Source of the DNA: Taibaiella koreensis
GTDB lineage: Bacteria > Bacteroidota > Bacteroidia > Chitinophagales > Chitinophagaceae
Reading direction: 5' to 3'
NCBI RefSeq assembly: GCF_003545715.1
Contig: NZ_QVNU01000006.1
Location: forward strand, 124,001-188,000
DNA length: 64,000 bases
Part shown: piece by piece, positions 34,320-43,067 of the stretch
Numbering within the stretch: position 1 is the stretch's first letter
How the letters are laid out: every line of letters begins with the position of its first letter
Program-made: the position numbers and the translations under genes
The notes under the pieces: model-generated
What the model was told of the DNA's origin: nothing
Seen by the model: the letters and a program-made list of their open reading frames with translations, nothing else
Databases searched by the model: none

Positions 34320-34341
34320 ACAACACTTAAATCCAAATGTG

Positions 34342-36330
34342 ATGCAGACAGGTGAAAACGAACAGGCTTTAAGGAAGATAGTGGACATGACCAGGCTGAT
34401 CGCTATGGTCGTCCTTTTCCTTCATTTTTATTACCAGCTTTATGCTGCTTTTAGTTTATGGCATGTACAGTCGGCCTTCTCCGACCGCGTACTGTCCAAT
34501 ATTGTCAGGACCGGTTTATTTTCCAGCTTTCACAAGGCAAAGCTAATCGCCCTGGGCTTCCTGGCAGTCTCCCTGCTTGGGGCAAAGGGCCGAAAAGACG
34601 AGAAGATGGGTTACAAAACCTGCTTCGCGTATTTGATCACCGGGCTGACCTGCTACTTTATCAGCTACTTATTACTGCGGTTTTCGCTTTCCGTTGAGGC
34701 CGTTGCCATGCTCTACATGGCCCTGACCGGCTTCGGCTTTTTGCTGGTATTGTCGGGCGGCACGATGCTGACCAGGATCATCAAGAACAACCTGAAGCAC
34801 GATATTTTCAATAGCGAAAACGAAACGTTCCCCCAGGAGGAGCGCTTGCTGGAAAATGAATACAGCATTAATCTGCCGGCAAAATACCGGCTGAAAAGCA
34901 AGGTTCGCAACAGCTGGATATCGATCATCAATCCCTTCAGGGGCATCCTGGTTTCCGGTACTCCCGGCTCCGGGAAATCTTATTTCGTGATCCGCCACAT
35001 CATTACTCAGCACATCAAAAAGGGTTTTGCGATGTTCGTTTACGACTTCAAGATGCCCGACCTGTCGGTGATCGTCTATAATACCTGGCTAAAGCACAAG
35101 CATGTTTATAAAAGCAAAAGCGAGTGTTATTTTATCAACTTCGACGACCTGGAAAGAAGCCATCGTTGCAACCCGCTGGACCCGGCAGCCATGAGTGATA
35201 TTACCGATGCAGCGGAATCGTCCAGGACCATTCTGTTAGGGCTAAACAAGCTCTGGATAACAAAACAAGGGGATTTTTTCATAGAGTCGAGTATCAATTT
35301 CCTGACCGCCATCATCTGGTTTCTGCGCAAATACAAGTTCGGGATCTACTGCACTTTACCGCATGTGATCGAGCTCATGCAGGCAGACTACGATAGCTTA
35401 TTTAGCGTACTGCAGCTTGAAAAGGAGATTGCTGTTTACATCAATCCTTTTGTAAAGGCTTACCTGAACGATGCTGCCGAACAGTTGGAAGGCCAGATCG
35501 GTTCTACCAAGATCGCGATAGCCAGGTTGTCATCCCCGCAGCTTTACTACGTGCTTTCCGGGCGCGATTTTTCGCTGGATATCAATAACCCCGACGCACC
35601 AAAGATCCTTTGCATGGGCAACAACCCGCAAAAGATACAGATCTACGGCGCGGTACTATCCTTATATGTCAACCGGCTGATCAAGCTAGTCAATCAACCC
35701 GGGAAACTTAAGAGCAGCCTCGTTTTTGACGAGTTTCCCACCATATACTTAAACGGTATTGATAGCCTGATCGCCACCGCCAGGAGTAATAAAGTCTCTA
35801 CTACACTGGGCCTGCAGGACCTCTCGCAACTTAGAAAAGATTACGGCAGGGAACAGTCGGATGTGATCATGGGTATTGTCGGCAATGTTATTTCCGGCCA
35901 GGTTACCGGTGACACGGCTAAGGCCTTGTCGGACAGGATCGGTAAGATCATGCAGGACAGGCAGAGCCTTTCGATCAATAGCCAGGACACCAGCGTGAGC
36001 AAATCTACGCAACTCGAAGCGGCTGTTCCACCCTCGAGGATCTCTTCTTTATCTTCGGGCGAATTTGTGGGCATGGTCGCCGATGATCCCGATAATAAAA
36101 TTGAATTGAAGGCATTTCACGCAGCAATTATCAACGATCATGATGCGATTAATGCAGAGATAAAAGGCTATAAGTCCTTACCACTGGTAAGGCAGGTGGA
36201 CGAGCAAATGGTGCAAAATAATTACATGAGCATCAAACGGGAGATCGAAGACCTGATAGATATTGAGCTGGACCGGATGTCCAATGATCCGGAGTTGAGG
36301 CATCTTGTTATCAGGAAGAAGGCTGCATAA
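34342..36330 (+). CDS. VirD4/TraG-type coupling protein (MobC-like)
   Basis: 662-aa ATPase that links the relaxase complex to a mating channel. Membrane segments lie at about residues 12-33, 54-74, 85-108 and 112-132. The Walker A motif is ILVSGTPGSGKSYFVIRHII (about 202-221) and the Walker B is KSSLVFDEFPTIYLNGI (about 460-476). A conserved LGLQDLSQLRKDYG follows. It is the last gene of the mobilization run. The window has no other type IV secretion genes, so a helper element would be needed, or the remaining tra genes lie elsewhere. Confidence 0.93.
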   Translation: MQTGENEQALRKIVDMTRLIAMVVLFLHFYYQLYAAFSLWHVQSAFSDRVLSNIVRTGLFSSFHKAKLIALGFLAVSLLGAKGRKDEKMGYKTCFAYLITGLTCYFISYLLLRFSLSVEAVAMLYMALTGFGFLLVLSGGTMLTRIIKNNLKHDIFNSENETFPQEERLLENEYSINLPAKYRLKSKVRNSWISIINPFRGILVSGTPGSGKSYFVIRHIITQHIKKGFAMFVYDFKMPDLSVIVYNTWLKHKHVYKSKSECYFINFDDLERSHRCNPLDPAAMSDITDAAESSRTILLGLNKLWITKQGDFFIESSINFLTAIIWFLRKYKFGIYCTLPHVIELMQADYDSLFSVLQLEKEIAVYINPFVKAYLNDAAEQLEGQIGSTKIAIARLSSPQLYYVLSGRDFSLDINNPDAPKILCMGNNPQKIQIYGAVLSLYVNRLIKLVNQPGKLKSSLVFDEFPTIYLNGIDSLIATARSNKVSTTLGLQDLSQLRKDYGREQSDVIMGIVGNVISGQVTGDTAKALSDRIGKIMQDRQSLSINSQDTSVSKSTQLEAAVPPSRISSLSSGEFVGMVADDPDNKIELKAFHAAIINDHDAINAEIKGYKSLPLVRQVDEQMVQNNYMSIKREIEDLIDIELDRMSNDPELRHLVIRKKAA

Positions 36331-36410: not shown

Positions 36411-37097
36411 CTATAGTAAAAGGTTGTCTCTGTAAGAACGACTCACACTCAGGCTTATCCCACCAATTAATTCCACCTCGTCATACTTTGTCTTAACGAT
36501 CTTTTTCTTGTTCACAATAAAGCCCCTGTGGACTCTTGCGAATATGGAGGATGGAAAAATTGATTCTATGTCTTTAAGTTTTAGAGTAAGTTTTGCTGAG
36601 CTGCTTTCGTCGTAGTAGACGGAAGTATAATAGCCCTTGGCTTCTATATAAATGATCCTGCTGAAGGCTATATTTTGTACTCCCGCATCCGTTAAAAACG
36701 GATAAGCAGCTTCATTTTCAAAACCGGTATTGTCTACTTTCTGAGGAAAGTTTGCTTCGATCTTTTTAACAGCGATGACAAAACGATCGAACTCTACTCT
36801 TTTGACCAGGTAGTCAATTGTGTTGGGATGGCTAAGCGCGTCATTGGTGAGGCCGTCACTTGCCGTTACAAATACGACACGATTGTCGATCATCTCGACC
36901 AGTTCAAGCCCCGAAACTTTTTGCATGCCAATATCAAGGAATACCACGTCAACTTTATTGGCCTTGAGAAACTTTAGTCCATCATGTGGCTCGGTCGTCG
37001 CCCCTACCAATTGGAGGCTTGGCGTTTTCTCTATAAGCCGCGTCAGGACTTTAATTGATGCGGGTTCGTCGTCAATTATAAAGCAGGTAATCGCCAT
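36411..37097 (-). CDS. LytTR response regulator
   Basis: 228-aa regulator with a receiver domain (about residues 1-115; phosphoacceptor Asp in NKVDVVFLDIGMQKVSGLEL) and a C-terminal LytTR DNA-binding domain (about 130-228; NIAFSRIIYIEAKGYYTSVY, SIFARVHRGFIVNKKKIVKT). Its start overlaps the kinase gene end by 26 bp, so the two are coupled. It most likely binds the tandem repeats at 38433-38512 upstream of this operon. Confidence 0.94.
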   Translation of the reverse strand: MAITCFIIDDEPASIKVLTRLIEKTPSLQLVGATTEPHDGLKFLKANKVDVVFLDIGMQKVSGLELVEMIDNRVVFVTASDGLTNDALSHPNTIDYLVKRVEFDRFVIAVKKIEANFPQKVDNTGFENEAAYPFLTDAGVQNIAFSRIIYIEAKGYYTSVYYDESSSAKLTLKLKDIESIFPSSIFARVHRGFIVNKKKIVKTKYDEVELIGGISLSVSRSYRDNLLL

Positions 37098-38130
37098 GTG
37101 TCATTATATTTTGAATCGTAAGAGATAGGTTATACTGTCCTTCTTTATCCTCTGTTTTCAGGAAATATTGTTCAGGATAAAATTTATCCAGTTGACTTTT
37201 GATATATCGCATGCCTATTCCCCTTGACTCGTCCTTTTGCAATCCACCTTTCGTATTTGAGACCCTAAAGATTAAATCCTCTTCTGTTTGCTCAATGTGT
37301 ATGGCCAATTTATTGTTGGAACCCGTGAAGCTGCCATGTTTAAAGGCGTTCTCAACCGGCGCGACCAGTACATGGGGGATTATCAGTATATCGTCGTAGA
37401 CTTTGTTTGTATATTCAATATTCGCATTGGGATACCGTTGTCTGAAAATGGTGATTAGGCTGTCCATTGCCCTTAGCTCATTGAACAAGGATATCCTACC
37501 GCTTTCGTCGGTTGACACAATACTATTACCTACAAAGGTGGTCATCGCGGCGATACCCTCAGCAATTTCAGGGTGAGTGTCTTCAATTCCGACCCTGAAA
37601 TATTCCATAGTATTTACAAAAAAATGCGGGTTGATCTGGGCTCGAAGTGCGGCATTTTCGAGTCTTAGTTTTTCATTCTCCGACCTCACCTGTTCCCTTA
37701 CCCGGGCTTCTTTTTGTTGGCGAATTATCTTTTTGGCAAGCCAATAACCTGTCGAATACATAAAGAAAGGCAACAGTTGCCAGCTGTATACAAGCGCTAA
37801 ATGGACGATAGGCAGTTCTGACACAGAAGAAGGTTTGCCTGTTATGAAAGGCAGTAAAAACTCGCCTCCCAGGTACTTAACAGTAAAATTAAAAAGGAAA
37901 AGGAGAATTGCCGAAGCACAATAAATGAATATCTTATTTCTTCCTAAAAACAGTGGTAGCAATACAAATGCATTAATGTAGAACTGACCGATCAGCACCA
38001 AATATGACCCAGTTGTTTCAAACACTATAGATTGCGTAGACCCTAGATATGATCTGTAAACAAAAATCGCAAAAGTGATATACAGTATCCACAGAGAAAT
38101 ATGAATGGTTATCTCTTTAGTTCTGGACAT
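37072..38130 (-). CDS. LytS-type sensor histidine kinase
   Basis: 352-aa kinase of the His_kinase/LytS type. Four membrane helices fill about residues 8-135 (LWILYITFAIFVYRSY, YLVLIGQFYINAFVLLPLFL, IYCASAILLFLFNFTVKYLG, YSWQLLPFFMYSTGYWLA). After a short coiled coil (EQVRSENEKLRLENAALRAQ) comes the phosphoacceptor His in INPHFFVNTMEYFRVGIEDT (about 168). The HATPase part has VLVAPVENAFKHGS and SRGIGMRYIKSQLDKFYPE. No large periplasmic domain exists, so a membrane-level or peptide signal is likely. It follows 72 bp after a small peptide gene and is coupled to the regulator gene. Confidence 0.94.
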   Translation of the reverse strand: MSRTKEITIHISLWILYITFAIFVYRSYLGSTQSIVFETTGSYLVLIGQFYINAFVLLPLFLGRNKIFIYCASAILLFLFNFTVKYLGGEFLLPFITGKPSSVSELPIVHLALVYSWQLLPFFMYSTGYWLAKKIIRQQKEARVREQVRSENEKLRLENAALRAQINPHFFVNTMEYFRVGIEDTHPEIAEGIAAMTTFVGNSIVSTDESGRISLFNELRAMDSLITIFRQRYPNANIEYTNKVYDDILIIPHVLVAPVENAFKHGSFTGSNNKLAIHIEQTEEDLIFRVSNTKGGLQKDESRGIGMRYIKSQLDKFYPEQYFLKTEDKEGQYNLSLTIQNIMTHGDYLLYN

Positions 38131-38202
38131 GATCTTTGGTGTTTGGGTTAGTTCAGCGCCACCGGAACGGTAGCGCTGAATTGAATAAATATGATCGCTT
38201 CA

Positions 38203-38352
38203 TTATGGACATCCCCATGTCGCGGGACATCCAACGGTAAAATTGCAGTTAAGTGGAACACTTGCACCGCCGTTTATTGGGTTCGACCGGGACCGTAATT
38301 GAATAATCTTAATCTTTTTAATGTCGAGCTTTTTGGGTTGTTTCTTTTTCAT
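38203..38352 (-). CDS. Class I lanthipeptide-like precursor peptide
   Basis: 49-aa ORF, too short for most gene callers. The leader starts MKKKQPKKLDIKKIKIIQLR and ends at NPINGG. The core after the double glycine is ASVPLNCNFTVGCPATWGCP, with three Cys, one Ser and two Thr. The KKLxIKKIKIxxL leader followed by GG and a Cys/Ser/Thr-rich tail is the pattern of Bacteroidota class I lanthipeptide precursors. It lies 72 bp upstream of a LytS-type kinase on the same strand. No lanthionine synthetase or exporter is seen in the window. The agr-like order, peptide-kinase-regulator, suggests a signal, but that is inference. Confidence 0.7.
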   Translation of the reverse strand: MKKKQPKKLDIKKIKIIQLRSRSNPINGGASVPLNCNFTVGCPATWGCP

Positions 38353-38421
38353 AAAGGGTGCTTTTTTGGTTAGCTAATGAGTAAAATTACCTTGCTTTCG
38401 ACCAAAAAAGCATTTCGGTTT

Positions 38422-38512
38422 GCTGAATGACGCGTCATTCAGCTTAAAAAAACGTTACTCAGCTCAAAAAACCGTTATCTGGCTCGATTTCCTGTTATCT
38501 AGCGCAATATTT
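38422..38512. promoter_or_regulatory. 22-bp palindrome plus four 20-bp tandem repeats, likely LytTR sites
   Basis: Positions 38422-38443 are a perfect 22-bp palindrome (GCTGAATGACG and complement). From 38433 four imperfect repeats follow at exactly 20-bp spacing: starts 38433 CGTCATTCAGCTTAAAAAAA, 38453 CGTTACTCAGCTCAAAAAAC, 38473 CGTTATCTGGCTCGATTTCC, 38493 TGTTATCTAGCGCAATATTT. The CGTTA core with two-turn spacing is what LytTR proteins bind as direct repeats. The block lies between the divergent peptide/kinase/regulator operon and the 38585 gene. Confidence 0.7.
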
Positions 38513-38534
38513 TTTTTATGACAGGAAAGCCAAA

Positions 38535-38542
38535 TTACTTTG
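38535..38542 (+). promoter_or_regulatory. Possible -7 promoter element of the 38585 gene
   Basis: TTACTTTG is close to the Bacteroidota -7 element TAnnTTTG, one base short in spacing. It lies 43 bp before the ATG and about 23 bp after the last of the tandem repeats, the expected place for an activator site. The match is weak. Confidence 0.35.
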
Positions 38543-38584
38543 TCCTCATCTTCTAAAAGAAGTTACCAAACTAAACAGAATTAT

Positions 38585-38815
38585 ATGGAAACTTATATCT
38601 CTACTTCTTTTCAATTAAGGGTCGATCCGGCCGCATCATTCCCAGGCTTTGGCTATCCCGCTACATCTCTGAAGCGCTTCCAGGAAACTGCCGGAGCCTA
38701 TTCGATCCTTTTGCAAAACGGCAACATTGTGCATTTTGAACCTAAAGATCCGGTTGCATTTAAAAACTGGTTGCATTCATTCAAAGTTCCTGATGCTTCT
38801 TCTTTTTTCTTATAA
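38585..38815 (+). CDS. Small hypothetical protein, putative target of the LytTR system
   Basis: 76-aa soluble protein: METYISTSFQLRVDPAASFP, then ATSLKRFQETAGAYSILLQN, then VHFEPKDPVAFKNWLHSFKV. Looks like a small alpha/beta fold; no family was recognised. The frame is open from 38540, but the ATG at 38585 is better placed relative to the putative promoter. It is divergent from the lanthipeptide-like gene, with the tandem repeats between them, so it is probably the main regulated output of the two-component system. Confidence 0.65.
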   Translation: METYISTSFQLRVDPAASFPGFGYPATSLKRFQETAGAYSILLQNGNIVHFEPKDPVAFKNWLHSFKVPDASSFFL

Positions 38816-39536
38816 CAACTAGCATCTGGTAGTTTATATCACTTACCCTATTTGCAGTAGGCCATTCTTGTTACATGCTGCATTTGATTGTTGATTGTTT
38901 AGTTCGTGCACGCGGTGTTTGGTTAGACCTGGCTATTCTTAGCCGGGTAAATTTTAAATTCGGGGGTAAAAATAATGATAGGTTGGGCTTAAGCACCAGG
39001 TTTTTGACTGTAATTTTTTCAGGTTAAATATTTCAGATACTTAACTTTTATCCAGTGTTAATGGATTAGTACTGATTCCTTTACAAAGATTAACGCTTGC
39101 AAAACAGACGTTTTCAATGAACAAGTTGAAGCTAAAACAGGTATATCTACCTGCTGCTGTTTTGGGTTTATGAGTAATATTTGTGACGATTTGATAGATA
39201 TTATTTTCTATACAAACTAATTCGCGTCGTGTAAATACAAGACATTCTATTGAACTTCTTTGCGTGTTCCGCAGGTAGATTCGATTCACAGCTGTTCAAC
39301 ACAACCGATTCACGAGGCAGTTTAATCCGGGAATGTCAGTTTGGCTTTGCCACATTTACCTTTAAATCTCAATAAAAAGGCATAACTCTGATTGACTATT
39401 AAATGTATTTCTAAAAAATTGAAAGCGGCCGCAACAATCAGGATGGCATCAATAACCTGCCTAAAACAGATGCACGCTGAACGAATGCTCCCATAGGCGG
39501 TAAAGAAATGGGACAAGCTAACATTTTAATATTCAG
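38816..39536. other. Gene-poor 721-bp stretch before the grasp-with-spasm locus
   Basis: No convincing gene. It contains minus-strand frames (39041-39289, 39322-39516) with poor character. At 39117-39173 a plus-strand frame starts MNKLKLKQVYLPAAVLGL and stops; its KLKLK start recalls a RiPP leader, so it might be a decayed precursor. The 3' part must contain the promoter of the precursor at 39537. Confidence 0.4.
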
Positions 39537-39803
39537 ATGAAAAAAATCAAATTGGAAAGTATGAATTCTGCCCTTTTCACCAAGACGAAAGTAGGTGACG
39601 AGGTGTTAAGCATGATCCGCGGAGGCTCCTCCAGGACGAGCTCCGATATTGCAGATGGCAAAGTAGTGACAGACACTTATACCTATTCCTGCACAGGGGA
39701 AGGTCGTTTTGATTGCACAACTACATGGCCCGGTAGCAACATGACGATACGTCGCGAAAGCCTTAAGATGTTCGACAACACTTCCGCAGGCGATTACCAG
39801 TAA
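39537..39803 (+). CDS. Grasp-with-spasm type RiPP precursor (GG leader)
   Basis: 88-aa precursor. The leader MKKIKLESMNSALFTKTKVG through VLSMIRGG ends in a double glycine at residues 29-30, the usual Bacteroidota natural-product cleavage signal. The core (residues 31-88) is rich in Ser, Thr, Asp and Glu (SSRTSSDIADGKVVTDTYTY, then SCTGEGRFDCTTTWPGS), which suits ATP-grasp formation of ester or amide rings between Thr/Ser/Lys and Asp/Glu. Two Cys are present (SCTGEGRFDC). It is followed by a strong hairpin and then by the maturase genes. Confidence 0.83.
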   Translation: MKKIKLESMNSALFTKTKVGDEVLSMIRGGSSRTSSDIADGKVVTDTYTYSCTGEGRFDCTTTWPGSNMTIRRESLKMFDNTSAGDYQ

Positions 39804-39823
39804 TAATGTGTATTAAATAACAC

Positions 39824-39855
39824 AACGCGCCTGCCAATATCGGGCAGGCGCGTTT
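39824..39855 (+). terminator. Strong hairpin after the precursor gene (partial terminator)
   Basis: AACGCGCCTGCC and GGCAGGCGCGTT form a perfect 12-bp stem around a 7-nt loop. Only three T follow the stem start, so read-through is likely. It would leave much precursor mRNA and less maturase mRNA, and protects the precursor transcript end. Confidence 0.8.
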
Positions 39856-39872
39856 AACACCAATTCGAAGTC

Positions 39873-40808
39873 ATGCGTCTCAAAAACCTTTGCCTCATGG
39901 TTCTTTTACCGATATCGCAAGCTGCAGCTCAAGAGAACTTAAAAACGTTTATTACAATTGATAGCGTAAAACAATACAAATTAGATAGTGCAACTGCCAG
40001 GCGCGAGTTAGAGATCCGTAACCATGATAGCGTTACCGCTTCCTTTAGAGCGATCAATAACGCGCTTTTTAATCAGAAAAAATATGCTGACATAATAGAG
40101 ACTTGTAAGCTATACGACCTGGATTATCTCAATTCGGATGTCAATTGCTATTTGGTAGGGGCGTATTATGCTATAGGCAGCCATTTTAAAAGCGACAGTA
40201 TGCTAAAAGTTACGCTTAAATACGCCGATAGTACTTTCAGCACCTATAATGCTACCACGTGTATGAATGCTGTAGGCTACAACGTGGCCATGCAGGAATA
40301 TCTGAGCAATTCTCAAAATTGGAAAAAAGTAGAACAGTTAGTATTCGAACATTATGAGCGATTGGAGAAGCCAAAAAACAGGCGGGCTTCAATGGAACTA
40401 TGGCACTTGTTACTGAAAGACCAATATATAAGAGGGCAAAATATTAAAGCACCAGAAAGAAAAGAAGAGTTTGCAATCGCAAACGAAAATAATTTAGAAG
40501 AACAATTCAACGTGTATAAGAGATCGGGGCACATATTCAGTTCAGCTGAAATTGGTGCCGGCCTTCACAATGAGCAATTTTTTCTTTTCGCCCATGAGGG
40601 GAACCGCGAGCGACGGAAATGGTATCTCGAACTAATCAAGGCCGGTGCTAAGCAAGGCCTTTGTGAGTTGCGAAGAGTACCCGATTTTATCCTTCGTACG
40701 GAAAAGCAAGATAAAGGGCCACGTCAATTTTTGATTGATCTGGAGCAGAGGGAATCTGAAATAAGAAAAGAGTACAACCTCCCTGATTACTATTACCAAT
40801 TCCCTTAA
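39873..40808 (+). CDS. Exported DUF6624-like protein of the grasp-with-spasm locus
   Basis: 311-aa protein with a signal peptide (MRLKNLCLMVLLPISQAAAQ). The C-terminal 150 residues resemble DUF6624: WHLLLKDQYIRGQNIKAPER (DQxxR), ANENNLEEQFNVYKRSGHIF, SSAEIGAGLHNEQFFLFAHE and PDFILRTEKQDKGPRQF. It is the first gene after the precursor and ends 3 bp before the ATP-grasp maturase gene, so it belongs to the operon. A periplasmic place suggests a role in leader removal, maturation or immunity; none is proven. Confidence 0.75.
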   Translation: MRLKNLCLMVLLPISQAAAQENLKTFITIDSVKQYKLDSATARRELEIRNHDSVTASFRAINNALFNQKKYADIIETCKLYDLDYLNSDVNCYLVGAYYAIGSHFKSDSMLKVTLKYADSTFSTYNATTCMNAVGYNVAMQEYLSNSQNWKKVEQLVFEHYERLEKPKNRRASMELWHLLLKDQYIRGQNIKAPERKEEFAIANENNLEEQFNVYKRSGHIFSSAEIGAGLHNEQFFLFAHEGNRERRKWYLELIKAGAKQGLCELRRVPDFILRTEKQDKGPRQFLIDLEQRESEIRKEYNLPDYYYQFP

Positions 40809-40811
40809 ATC

Positions 40812-41798
40812 ATGGTACTCATTTTATCAGAACATCAGGATGCTAGTACTGTAGAAGTCTTGAAGTGGCTAAACCATTTCGGAATAACGTGGATAAGGAT
40901 TAACGAGGACGATGAAGTCCGGTTCGATTGCCTTGAATTTGCTGGCAATCAACTTGCAGGGTTAGTTATCACGATTAATGGGAAACCATTGAATTTGGTT
41001 GAAGTAAAATCTTATTGGTACCGACGTGGCTGGTTACATTATGGAGCTCAGTATATTTCTGGTAAGATTTCAAATCATAGTTTGGTGAATGAAAATATGC
41101 ACCAATATTTACAAGAAGAGCTTGATAATGTGATGGAATTTGTCCATCGGTATTTGCAAAGTGAAAAGCAATGTATCAACTCTTATTTGAGCGCTAAAAA
41201 TAATAAAACCTACTATCATTATGTTGCTTCGAAGGCTGGTTTCGACCTTCCTGACACGTTAATTGCCACACAAAAAAAAGATCTTGAAAGATTCAGTGAC
41301 GAGAGCGGTAGAGGCAGCTTGATAACGAAAAGCATAAATGAAATGTTCTCTTTCACCCACGATGGAAAGTGCTACCGTAACCTGACAAATGAGGTACGGC
41401 AAAGCGACATCCAGGAAGGCAATAAAGTTTTTTATCCTACACTTTTTCAAACTTATGTTGAAAAATTCTTCGAGTTACGTGTGTTTTATATACTCGGAGA
41501 AATTTATTCAATGGCAATATTTTCACAACTCAACGCAAAAACTCAATTTGACTTTAGGAATTATGATCACGAATATTCAAATCGTAATGTCCCATTTATT
41601 TTACCTGCCTCAATCGCTCAAAAAGTAAAAGTTTTCATGGCAGAAATCGATCTCAATTGTGGCTCTTTGGATATGATCGTAACTGCCGACGGAAGATTTG
41701 TATTTCTGGAAGTTAATCCTGTGGGACAATTCGGCATGGTGTCTAACCCTTGTAATTATTACCTGGAAAAGAGAATTGCTGAGATATTAAGCCAATAA
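40812..41798 (+). CDS. gwsG: Grasp-with-spasm system ATP-grasp peptide maturase
   Basis: 328-aa ATP-grasp ligase. Early residues show EVKSYWYRRGWLHY (about 66-79), the R-R-G signature of RiPP-modifying ATP-grasp enzymes. The ATP-grasp core includes KTYYHYVASKAGFDLPDTLI, LFQTYVEKFFELRVFYI and CGSLDMIVTADGRFVFLEVN PVGQF, with the metal-binding D and ExN. It would make ring bonds in the precursor at 39537. The spacing in the operon (3 bp after the upstream gene) and the SPASM partner downstream fit the grasp-with-spasm family. Confidence 0.88.
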   Translation: MVLILSEHQDASTVEVLKWLNHFGITWIRINEDDEVRFDCLEFAGNQLAGLVITINGKPLNLVEVKSYWYRRGWLHYGAQYISGKISNHSLVNENMHQYLQEELDNVMEFVHRYLQSEKQCINSYLSAKNNKTYYHYVASKAGFDLPDTLIATQKKDLERFSDESGRGSLITKSINEMFSFTHDGKCYRNLTNEVRQSDIQEGNKVFYPTLFQTYVEKFFELRVFYILGEIYSMAIFSQLNAKTQFDFRNYDHEYSNRNVPFILPASIAQKVKVFMAEIDLNCGSLDMIVTADGRFVFLEVNPVGQFGMVSNPCNYYLEKRIAEILSQ

Positions 41799-41806
41799 CA
41801 TAGGCC

Positions 41807-41992
41807 ATGAATAATAAAATGCATCTAAAAGAAGGATTACTTATCAATACTGAGAGCCTTCCCTTCTCTGTACGCTTATGGACAGCAACGTCTGTTCAAA
41901 TTCCGTTCAAAGGACCGCGGGAAGTTAAAAGCTTCGGAACCAGGGAATATAAATACAAAAAATATTACAAATACATCTCAAGAAGAGGTTGA
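41807..41992 (+). CDS. Small ORF between the two maturase genes
   Basis: 61-aa basic peptide: MNNKMHLKEGLLINTESLPF, then TATSVQIPFKGPREVKSFGT, then EYKYKKYYKYISRRG. It fills the gap exactly: 8 bp after the ATP-grasp stop and 1 bp before the SPASM start. No GG leader. It may be a maturation partner or a second substrate, or non-coding; no family was recognised. Confidence 0.5.
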   Translation: MNNKMHLKEGLLINTESLPFSVRLWTATSVQIPFKGPREVKSFGTREYKYKKYYKYISRRG

Positions 41993-41993
41993 T

Positions 41994-43067
41994 ATGTCTG
42001 ACAAGATCGTGTTTCGGTTGTTTTCATCCTGCCTGCTTACCGCAGGCAGTACCCGCGCACTTATCTGCGACCCGCAAAGGGGCAATTATTATACCATACC
42101 CTTATCTCTATATTCGATAATCGCAGAGCAAAAAAAAGCAAGCATTGAAGAAACGCTAGCTATTTGCGAAGATCAGGAAGAAGCAGAAATTTTGAAATCT
42201 TATTTCAACTTCTTACTTGAACATGAGCTGATCTTTCTATGTAGAGAGGATTTAGCAGATAACTTTACTCCAATAAAATACGAATTCGATGTGCCGGCAA
42301 TTATAGCCAATGCAATAGTCCAGATAGGGAAAAAGGCGGAATATCTTGTTGATACTCTCGCACAGTTAAAACTACTTGGCTGTCAAGCTTTCGAATTAGT
42401 AGTTATGACGGATTGCCCCCTCTCATTTTTGTCACACATTCTCGAACTCTGTAAAGGCCAAGAGCTGGACGAAGTTAATTTATACATTCCATTTAATCCG
42501 GAAACAGATTATGAAGCACTTATTGAAGAGTATTGCTTCCTCAGTTCTGTAACGATATGCAATGCGCCCACTAACGAGGAAATATTCCTTAATGGCGATA
42601 GCTGCACGCTTAGATTCTCTACAAAAGACCTTCGTGATCATCGCCACTGTGGTATAATTGCCGAAAAATATTTTATTCCGGATTTAGTGCACCATTCGGA
42701 ATCCCTTCAGCATAATACTTGTCTGAATAGAAAAATAGCAATCGATGTAAATGGTAACATCAAGAATTGTCCCTCACTTAATGAAAGCTTTGGCAACATT
42801 AAGGATATCACTCTTGAAGAAGCAATATGTCAGCCGCATTTTAAAAAATATTGGAACATCAACAAAGATCAAATAGAGGTTTGTAAAGATTGCGAATTTC
42901 GGCACGTTTGTACTGACTGTCGCGCATATCTTGAAGATCCTTCAAATGTTTACAGCAAGCCACTAAAATGTGGTTATGACCCATACACCTGTACATGGGA
43001 GGACTGGAGTAAAAATCCATTGAAGGAGAATATCATTATCCAATACGGAATCCATTCTATCGAATGA
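41994..43067 (+). CDS. gwsS: Grasp-with-spasm system SPASM-domain peptide maturase, no radical-SAM motif
   Basis: 357-aa protein. The C-terminal SPASM-type cluster region has paired Cys (NTCLNRKIAIDVNGNIKNCP about residues 242-261, then VCKDCEFRHVCTDCRAYLED about 299-318 and LKCGYDPYTCTWEDW). The N-terminal 230 residues contain no CxxxCxxC radical-SAM motif, as described for the SPASM member of grasp-with-spasm pairs. N-terminal residues (RLFSSCLLTAGSTRALICDP) resemble a peptide-recognition region. It presumably binds precursor or assists the ATP-grasp enzyme, with an auxiliary Fe-S cluster; exact chemistry is unknown. Confidence 0.83.
   Translation: MSDKIVFRLFSSCLLTAGSTRALICDPQRGNYYTIPLSLYSIIAEQKKASIEETLAICEDQEEAEILKSYFNFLLEHELIFLCREDLADNFTPIKYEFDVPAIIANAIVQIGKKAEYLVDTLAQLKLLGCQAFELVVMTDCPLSFLSHILELCKGQELDEVNLYIPFNPETDYEALIEEYCFLSSVTICNAPTNEEIFLNGDSCTLRFSTKDLRDHRHCGIIAEKYFIPDLVHHSESLQHNTCLNRKIAIDVNGNIKNCPSLNESFGNIKDITLEEAICQPHFKKYWNINKDQIEVCKDCEFRHVCTDCRAYLEDPSNVYSKPLKCGYDPYTCTWEDWSKNPLKENIIIQYGIHSIE

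Follow-up and report, generated by a model that had tools for sequence, protein, structure and literature searches.

A small precursor peptide with a lanthipeptide-type leader lies directly ahead of a LytS-like histidine kinase and a LytTR response regulator in Taibaiella koreensis, and the same order recurs within one clade of kinases of its genus. The reading that we moderately favour is that the peptide is a lanthipeptide-type autoinducer, which would be matured in trans, exported and sensed by the LytS-type kinase, the LytTR regulator then providing positive feedback; autoinduction by such a signal is the best, if unproven, reading of the mechanism. The DNA analysed (the window) is a stretch of 64,000 nucleotides belonging to a 5.94-Mb genome (G000), and the operon comprises the following genes.

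38203 to 38352, minus strand: precursor peptide of 49 aa, with the leader KLDIKKIKIIQL, GG at residues 28-29 and the core ASVPLNCNFTVGCPATWGCP.
37072 to 38130, minus strand: LytS-like (PF06580) histidine kinase of 352 aa, with about four membrane segments and no sizeable extracytoplasmic domain.
36411 to 37097, minus strand: LytTR response regulator with Response_reg and LytTR matches, sharing 26 bases with the end of the kinase gene.

The 49-codon ORF, which the earlier note had singled out for its leader, its GG site and its Cys/Ser/Thr core, is real, as both its translation (MKKKQPKKLDIKKIKIIQLRSRSNPINGGASVPLNCNFTVGCPATWGCP) and a shuffled-window control agree. In 30 block-shuffled windows, 9,856 ORFs had a length of 40-80 aa; 12 of them carried the leader motif, and none combined it with GG, AG or GE and a Cys late in the sequence. 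The real window has 271 ORFs of that size, of which one, the peptide itself, shows the motif. The leader is lysine-rich, and the core of 20 residues holds three Ser/Thr and three Cys, with two T-x-x-C pairs. An LxLxKx5L leader followed by a GG site is described for Bacteroidota class I lanthipeptide precursors in the accessible text of PMC7268733, and both elements are present here, LDIKKIKIIQL carrying I in place of the second L. Profile scores are low: NF038153 (lant_leader_L1a) does not list the peptide to E 1, and NF038158 (L1b) gives 11.9 bits for a cut-off of 27. A search across 99 genomes returned, the peptide itself apart, nothing at or below E 0.001, the best match standing at 0.0014; many of the weaker matches inspected were other leader-type precursors, and others were chance frames.

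The stop codon of the peptide gene is separated by 72 nt from the kinase start on the same strand, and the nature of the two genes behind it, also as claimed in the earlier note, is supported by 41 bits for the kinase against PF06580 (cut-off 25.2) and 56.6 bits for the regulator against PF04397 (LytTR). The description of the kinase as a four-helix protein devoid of a sensor domain likewise agrees with hydropathy, which places three membrane segments at a threshold of 1.5 (residues 7-25, 44-62 and 66-84) and four at 1.3 (also 106-124). Among Pfam matches to E 1, the 5TMR_LYT sensor domain of LytS sensu stricto is absent; the AgrC-type GHKL profile PF14501 scores 16.1 bits, under its cut-off of 22, and phmmer retrieved no related solved structure at E 0.01. 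To the left of the operon, MobC is found at 34339-36330, with ORFs that resemble mobilisation genes by eye.

A survey of upstream DNA covered 55 LytS-type kinases shorter than 520 aa, 52 of which come from four genomes of the window's genus. A leader-type peptide lies ahead on the same strand in nine of the 52, eight being detected by regular expression and one (L217) spotted by eye, the latter having later matched NF038153 under the cut-off. As three genomes together contain 248 leader matches (E up to 0.1), it could be supposed that one of many dispersed precursors had come to lie next to a kinase by chance; against this, the leader density predicts, on a rough estimate, about 0.25 adjacencies among the 52 kinases and nine are seen, seven of them within one clade of nine kinases, by which chance is refuted at clade level and left with practically no probability. 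Elsewhere in the genus such a peptide precedes two of 43 kinases, L239 and L200 (Fisher p 9e-6 for clade versus rest; 6/9 and p 1e-4 with the regular-expression hits alone). No leader-motif peptide was found on the opposite strand for any of the 55 kinases, in a count that covered ORFs up to 130 aa; L075 has a longer divergent leader-type ORF outside this limit. Peptide-to-kinase gaps in the seven clade loci amount to 72-100 nt, and the neighbourhood survey that the earlier note had called for thus upholds the gene order in relatives. At L239 (G001:C2:284700-289191), an 84-aa leader-motif peptide lies about 130 bp ahead of a kinase-LytTR pair, and three further L1a leaders occur upstream on the same strand.

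Within the clade, the closest kinase, 62% identical to that of the window (L072, on G000:C23), has a regulator and no peptide, and is possibly an orphan receptor for the peptide of another system. At L077 a leader-like peptide, KIELKKAIIVQL, stands one gene ahead of the kinase with an S41 peptidase between them, and this locus was scored as a miss; in the region L077:2395-9746 a single run comprises the leader-like peptide, the S41 peptidase, the kinase, a LytTR gene and genes related to the ATP-grasp and SPASM maturases of the window. The peptide is kept ahead of the kinase with no adjacent regulator in L075, L076 and L243, and the L217 locus has a regulator. A profile built from eight clade kinases was run on 394 family genomes, the best five or fewer candidates per genome being scored; those eight, which occur in three of the four genus genomes, gave 470-581 bits, L077 gave 301 and kinases elsewhere at most 228, the drop from 470 to 301 bits being partly by construction as the model was made from the same eight. 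In a quick tree with a long-branch root, the eight kinases with L077 received 99% SH-aLRT and the eight without it 59%. Because of this value, of the origin of the profile drop, and of the similar phmmer scores of L217 and L077 against the window kinase, the nine-kinase clade was taken as the reference set. Its sister group is formed by L078 and L079, of which L078 lies within a LanB-LanC cluster. The clade sample comes from three genomes of one genus and includes the orthologs L073 and L074, so its loci are not all independent.

All seven clade peptides share a KLxLxKxxIxxL-type leader with a GG or AG site, and six have the core motif [ST][WY]xC, in the forms TWGC, SYGC (twice), TYAC, TYLC and TWDC, the core of L075 departing from it with SSFC; P[YF]NAPP[YF] is also common to the L076, L217 and L243 peptides. 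Against NF038153 the sister peptides score 22.9 (L073), 21.8 (L074), 17.8 (L075), 18.3 (L076), 22.6 (L243) and 17.0 bits (L217), two of six passing the cut-off of 22, so that the proposed comparison with class I lanthipeptide models fails for the window peptide and succeeds for part of its family. Ser/Thr is found at i-3 in eight of 13 core Cys, a count reached by none of 20,000 permutations (seven of 12, p 0.00055, without the ortholog L074). Eight dispersed precursors of the genus show it too, at 30 of 67 Cys (0/5,000 permutations), and this spacing is therefore regarded as general to the lanthipeptide-type cores of the genus.

Conservation at the protein level could be followed in one comparable ortholog pair, L073/L074, in which dN and dS are 0.25 and 1.06 for the leader, 0.61 and 0.62 (ratio about 1) for the 23-codon core, and 0.07 and 1.34 for the kinase. 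The expectation of a constrained peptide is thus borne out for the leader and fails for the core taken in its entirety, where the end, SYGCTL, is unchanged and the remainder drifts. The ratio near one in the core is counted against the signalling reading and, as far as these sequences suggest, goes part of the way to what had been set beforehand as grounds for giving it up, namely such a ratio in leader and core.

Three further elements surround the peptide gene.

38152 to 38180, minus strand: hairpin with a 13-bp stem, between the peptide stop and the kinase start, with no U-tract after it.
38434 to 38505, minus strand: four imperfect direct repeats, RMGCYRRRTRAC, with a period of exactly 20 bp, lying upstream of the peptide gene and forming a candidate operator for LytTR.
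38422 to 38443, no strand assigned: perfect 22-bp palindrome, GCTGAATGACG/CGTCATTCAGC, sharing bases with the repeat that is closest to the peptide.

By dinucleotide shuffling, the hairpin of the window has a z of -3.8, compared with -2.1 in L073, -3.0 in L074, -5.1 in L075, -5.6 in L076, -4.9 in L217 and -1.9 in L243; values below -2.5 are found in five of the seven clade loci versus two of 39 controls taken 90 nt ahead of other kinase ORFs, the hairpins of L073 and L243 being weak. The Flavihumibacter-type loci L257 and L271 give -5.9 and -3.7, and L239 gives -1.8. No clear U-tract was seen by eye behind the hairpins of the loci inspected, and they are for this reason read as processing or stability elements, not as terminators. 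Their near-constant position between ORF and kinase would also suit a small ORF acting as a translation-coupled attenuator of the kinase mRNA, the hairpin being regulatory and no product being secreted. This explanation is very improbable in view of the amino-acid-level constraint on the leader in the ortholog pair, the matches to a lanthipeptide leader profile, the GG or AG site common to the peptides, and the stems themselves, which by eye differ in sequence from locus to locus, the ortholog pair apart.

The four-copy score of the repeat array was reached by none of 400 shuffles. A repeat-pair pattern taken from this very array occurs nowhere else in the window when up to 3 mismatches are allowed, nor in 2.07 Mb of partly overlapping loci when up to 2 are allowed. 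In L073 and L074, AACTACGAT pairs occur with the same 20-bp period as in the window (2/400 and 0/400 shuffles); repeats of this period are absent upstream in L217, where a regulator is present, and in L075, L076 and L243, where none is adjacent. The DNA sites of LytTR proteins are direct repeats spaced by about two helical turns, and on this ground the array at 38434-38505 is a candidate autoregulatory operator. A sigma-70 scan of 38100-39560 found 3 promoters for 3.4 expected and was uninformative; promoters in Bacteroidota differ in type from sigma-70 ones. The peptide gene has the intergenic region that carries the repeats in common with a divergent frame of 76 aa (38585-38815, plus strand), which has no family match over cut-off.

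The absence of LanB and LanC from the window and the possibility of maturation in trans, both put forward in the earlier note, agree with whole-genome searches. A LanB with both dehydratase domains is encoded on contig C16, where genes for a C39-peptidase ABC exporter and an HlyD protein come after it; a second, shorter LanB (C20:115702-118470) lies 5.5 kb to the left of the window and about 44 kb from the peptide, and the four LanC matches are spread over four contigs other than that of the window. The operon itself has no LanB, LanC or transporter, and LanB and LanC do not share a cluster with the peptide; since LanB, LanC and C39 genes exist elsewhere in the genome, trans maturation of the peptide is plausible. 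The short LanB adjoins a LytTR-kinase pair and two tandem divergent small peptides (L004:7702-12674, on C20), which end in TIPTLTKFC and TIPTITRFC, and nearby ORFs look conjugation-like by eye.

To the right of the peptide operon, at a distance of 1.2 kb and divergent from it, a second RiPP locus is found.

39537 to 43067, plus strand: grasp-with-spasm RiPP cluster, with an 88-aa GG-bearing ORF, a 311-aa ORF, the ATP-grasp maturase TIGR04192, a 61-aa ORF and the SPASM maturase TIGR04193.

The 88-aa ORF reaches no curated Pfam or NCBIfam cut-off. The cluster is a possible target of the peptide circuit; no copy of the repeat motif was found near it, and its inclusion in the regulon was set aside for want of a site. 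Its proximity, together with a similar cluster by the related kinase of L077, the distance of LanB and LanC, and the position of the window peptide under the lanthipeptide leader cut-offs, could suggest that the peptide is a signal but not a lanthipeptide, either acting without modification once cut at GG or being modified by different enzymes, for example the grasp-with-spasm pair. We hold this to be improbable, given that the sister peptides match lant_leader_L1a, two of them over the cut-off, that Ser/Thr occupies position i-3 of Cys far more often than under permutation, and that the grasp-with-spasm cluster has its own candidate precursor at 39537.

Matches to NF038153 at E up to 0.1, some of which are under the curated cut-off, number 110 in G000, 73 in G001, 65 in G003 and none in G002, a genome that has neither LanB nor the kinase clade; in the first three they are spread over many contigs (for example L043, L047, L049, L051 and L056). 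At E 0.001, ten of 147 family genomes are positive, with at least 49 matches in G000 and at least 45 in G003 (the best 49 candidates being scored in each) and one to seven in each of the other eight, which lie outside the genus. Judged from these profiles, G000 appears to have a very large set of scattered class I lanthipeptide-like precursors for only two LanB and four LanC loci. LanB adjoins a related kinase in nine of 27 next-tier family loci, and LanB or LanC is present in eight of 80 kinase loci from named genomes, among the matches listed (at least 80 loci in all). The window system may accordingly be read as the regulatory module of a lanthipeptide cluster that has become separated from its enzymes.

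The same repertoire gives some weight to an alternative in which the product is an antimicrobial or effector lanthipeptide, the kinase and regulator sensing this product or envelope stress and controlling production and immunity, so that cell-cell signalling would not be the point: most of the roughly 110 leader-matched peptides are unlikely to be pheromones, and kinases of the wider family adjoin LanB or LanC much as LanK/LanR do. However, a scan of ten window ORFs showed no ABC immunity gene among them, L075, L076 and L243 retain the peptide with no adjacent regulator, and small cores with a common [ST][WY]xC resemble ligands of one receptor family; such a role is considered unlikely, though it deserves more weight than the other alternatives.

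According to the autoinducer reading, the precursor, with its class I lanthipeptide-type leader, would probably be dehydrated and cyclised in trans by LanB and LanC encoded elsewhere, cut at the GG site and exported by the C39 ABC transporter. The mature Cys-ringed peptide would be sensed by the adjacent LytS-type kinase, which would phosphorylate the LytTR regulator; the latter may bind the 20-bp-period repeats and increase transcription of the peptide operon in a positive feedback, and the hairpin behind the peptide gene may keep peptide output above kinase output. A broader proposal, advanced here only tentatively, is that a single Bacteroidota genome maintains several parallel private pheromone channels, made of [ST][WY]xC lanthionine-ringed peptides, cognate LytS-type receptors and shared trans-acting enzymes, which would have originated by duplication and splitting from complete lanthipeptide clusters. 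If true, it would amount to RiPP-based quorum sensing in Bacteroidota, with trans lanthipeptide synthesis serving signalling, and it offers a use for part of the dispersed gene set. Ligand, receptor and promoter are directly testable in the genus, because it provides paired peptide and receptor paralogues, one ortholog pair, a candidate operator and a LanB/LanC/C39 set.

Peptide signalling through kinases is textbook knowledge in Gram-positive bacteria, as treated in the accessible part of PMC8895600. For Bacteroidota, the literature searches gave only a suggestion of kinase-read peptide signalling: the available text of PMC10352776 reports that one Bacteroidales RiPP cluster contains a paired kinase and regulator, and suggests such peptides as possible signals. 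The statement of the earlier note that this arrangement was not known in Bacteroidota was therefore too strong, also in view of Flavihumibacter cheonanensis, where the order LanB, peptide, kinase, LytTR, LanC occurs (L127). No paper on peptide-LytS-LytTR pairs in Bacteroidota was found among the matches listed, judged by titles and abstract openings and with subscription papers thinly covered. What is new is the pairing and the fact that it recurs, the parts themselves being known.

Among known systems, prochlorosins are many dispersed lanthipeptide precursors served by one synthetase, the class II LanM; the genus resembles them in having many dispersed precursors and few enzymes, and differs in using LanB/LanC instead of LanM. 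We know of no kinase pairing for prochlorosins. The agr system (AgrD-AgrC-AgrA) comprises a small precursor, a membrane kinase, a LytTR regulator and positive feedback, and the nisin regulator is of the OmpR type. The window shares with agr the small precursor, membrane kinase and LytTR regulator, and candidate positive feedback, whereas its kinase is of a different class and its leader is GG-type and lanthipeptide-like. AgrB (PF04647) has no match in G000 at E 0.01, one sub-cut-off match in G001 and none in G003, and no control genome exceeds the cut-off. Membership of agr was rejected on this ground and on the kinase scores (PF06580 at 41 bits, PF14501 at 16.1, under 22); of the agr-like reading, the peptide-kinase-LytTR order stands, with a working that would resemble nisin or agr autoinduction. 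LanK/LanR autoinduction, exemplified by NisK-NisR of nisin in the accessible part of PMC8895600, is alike in that a lanthipeptide-type product has its own two-component system, and differs from the present case, where the kinase is PF06580 LytS-like, the regulator is LytTR and the enzymes would act in trans. The Bacteroidota class I lanthipeptide precursors (NF038153; PMC7268733, in its accessible text) resemble the window family in leader motif, GG site and Ser/Thr/Cys core; compared with them, the window peptide scores under the cut-offs, has a short core and is followed by a kinase and regulator, with no LanB, LanC or C39 in the operon. The Flavihumibacter L127 locus differs from the window in that its enzymes are in the cluster and its core lacks [ST][WY]xC, and its kinase is identical over 342 aa to that of L271 (G269, a genome of the window's family, which this identity indicates to be Chitinophagaceae); as in the window, its peptide precedes a related kinase and LytTR regulator, here with a gap of 60 nt, and the like loci L257 and L271 have the hairpin.
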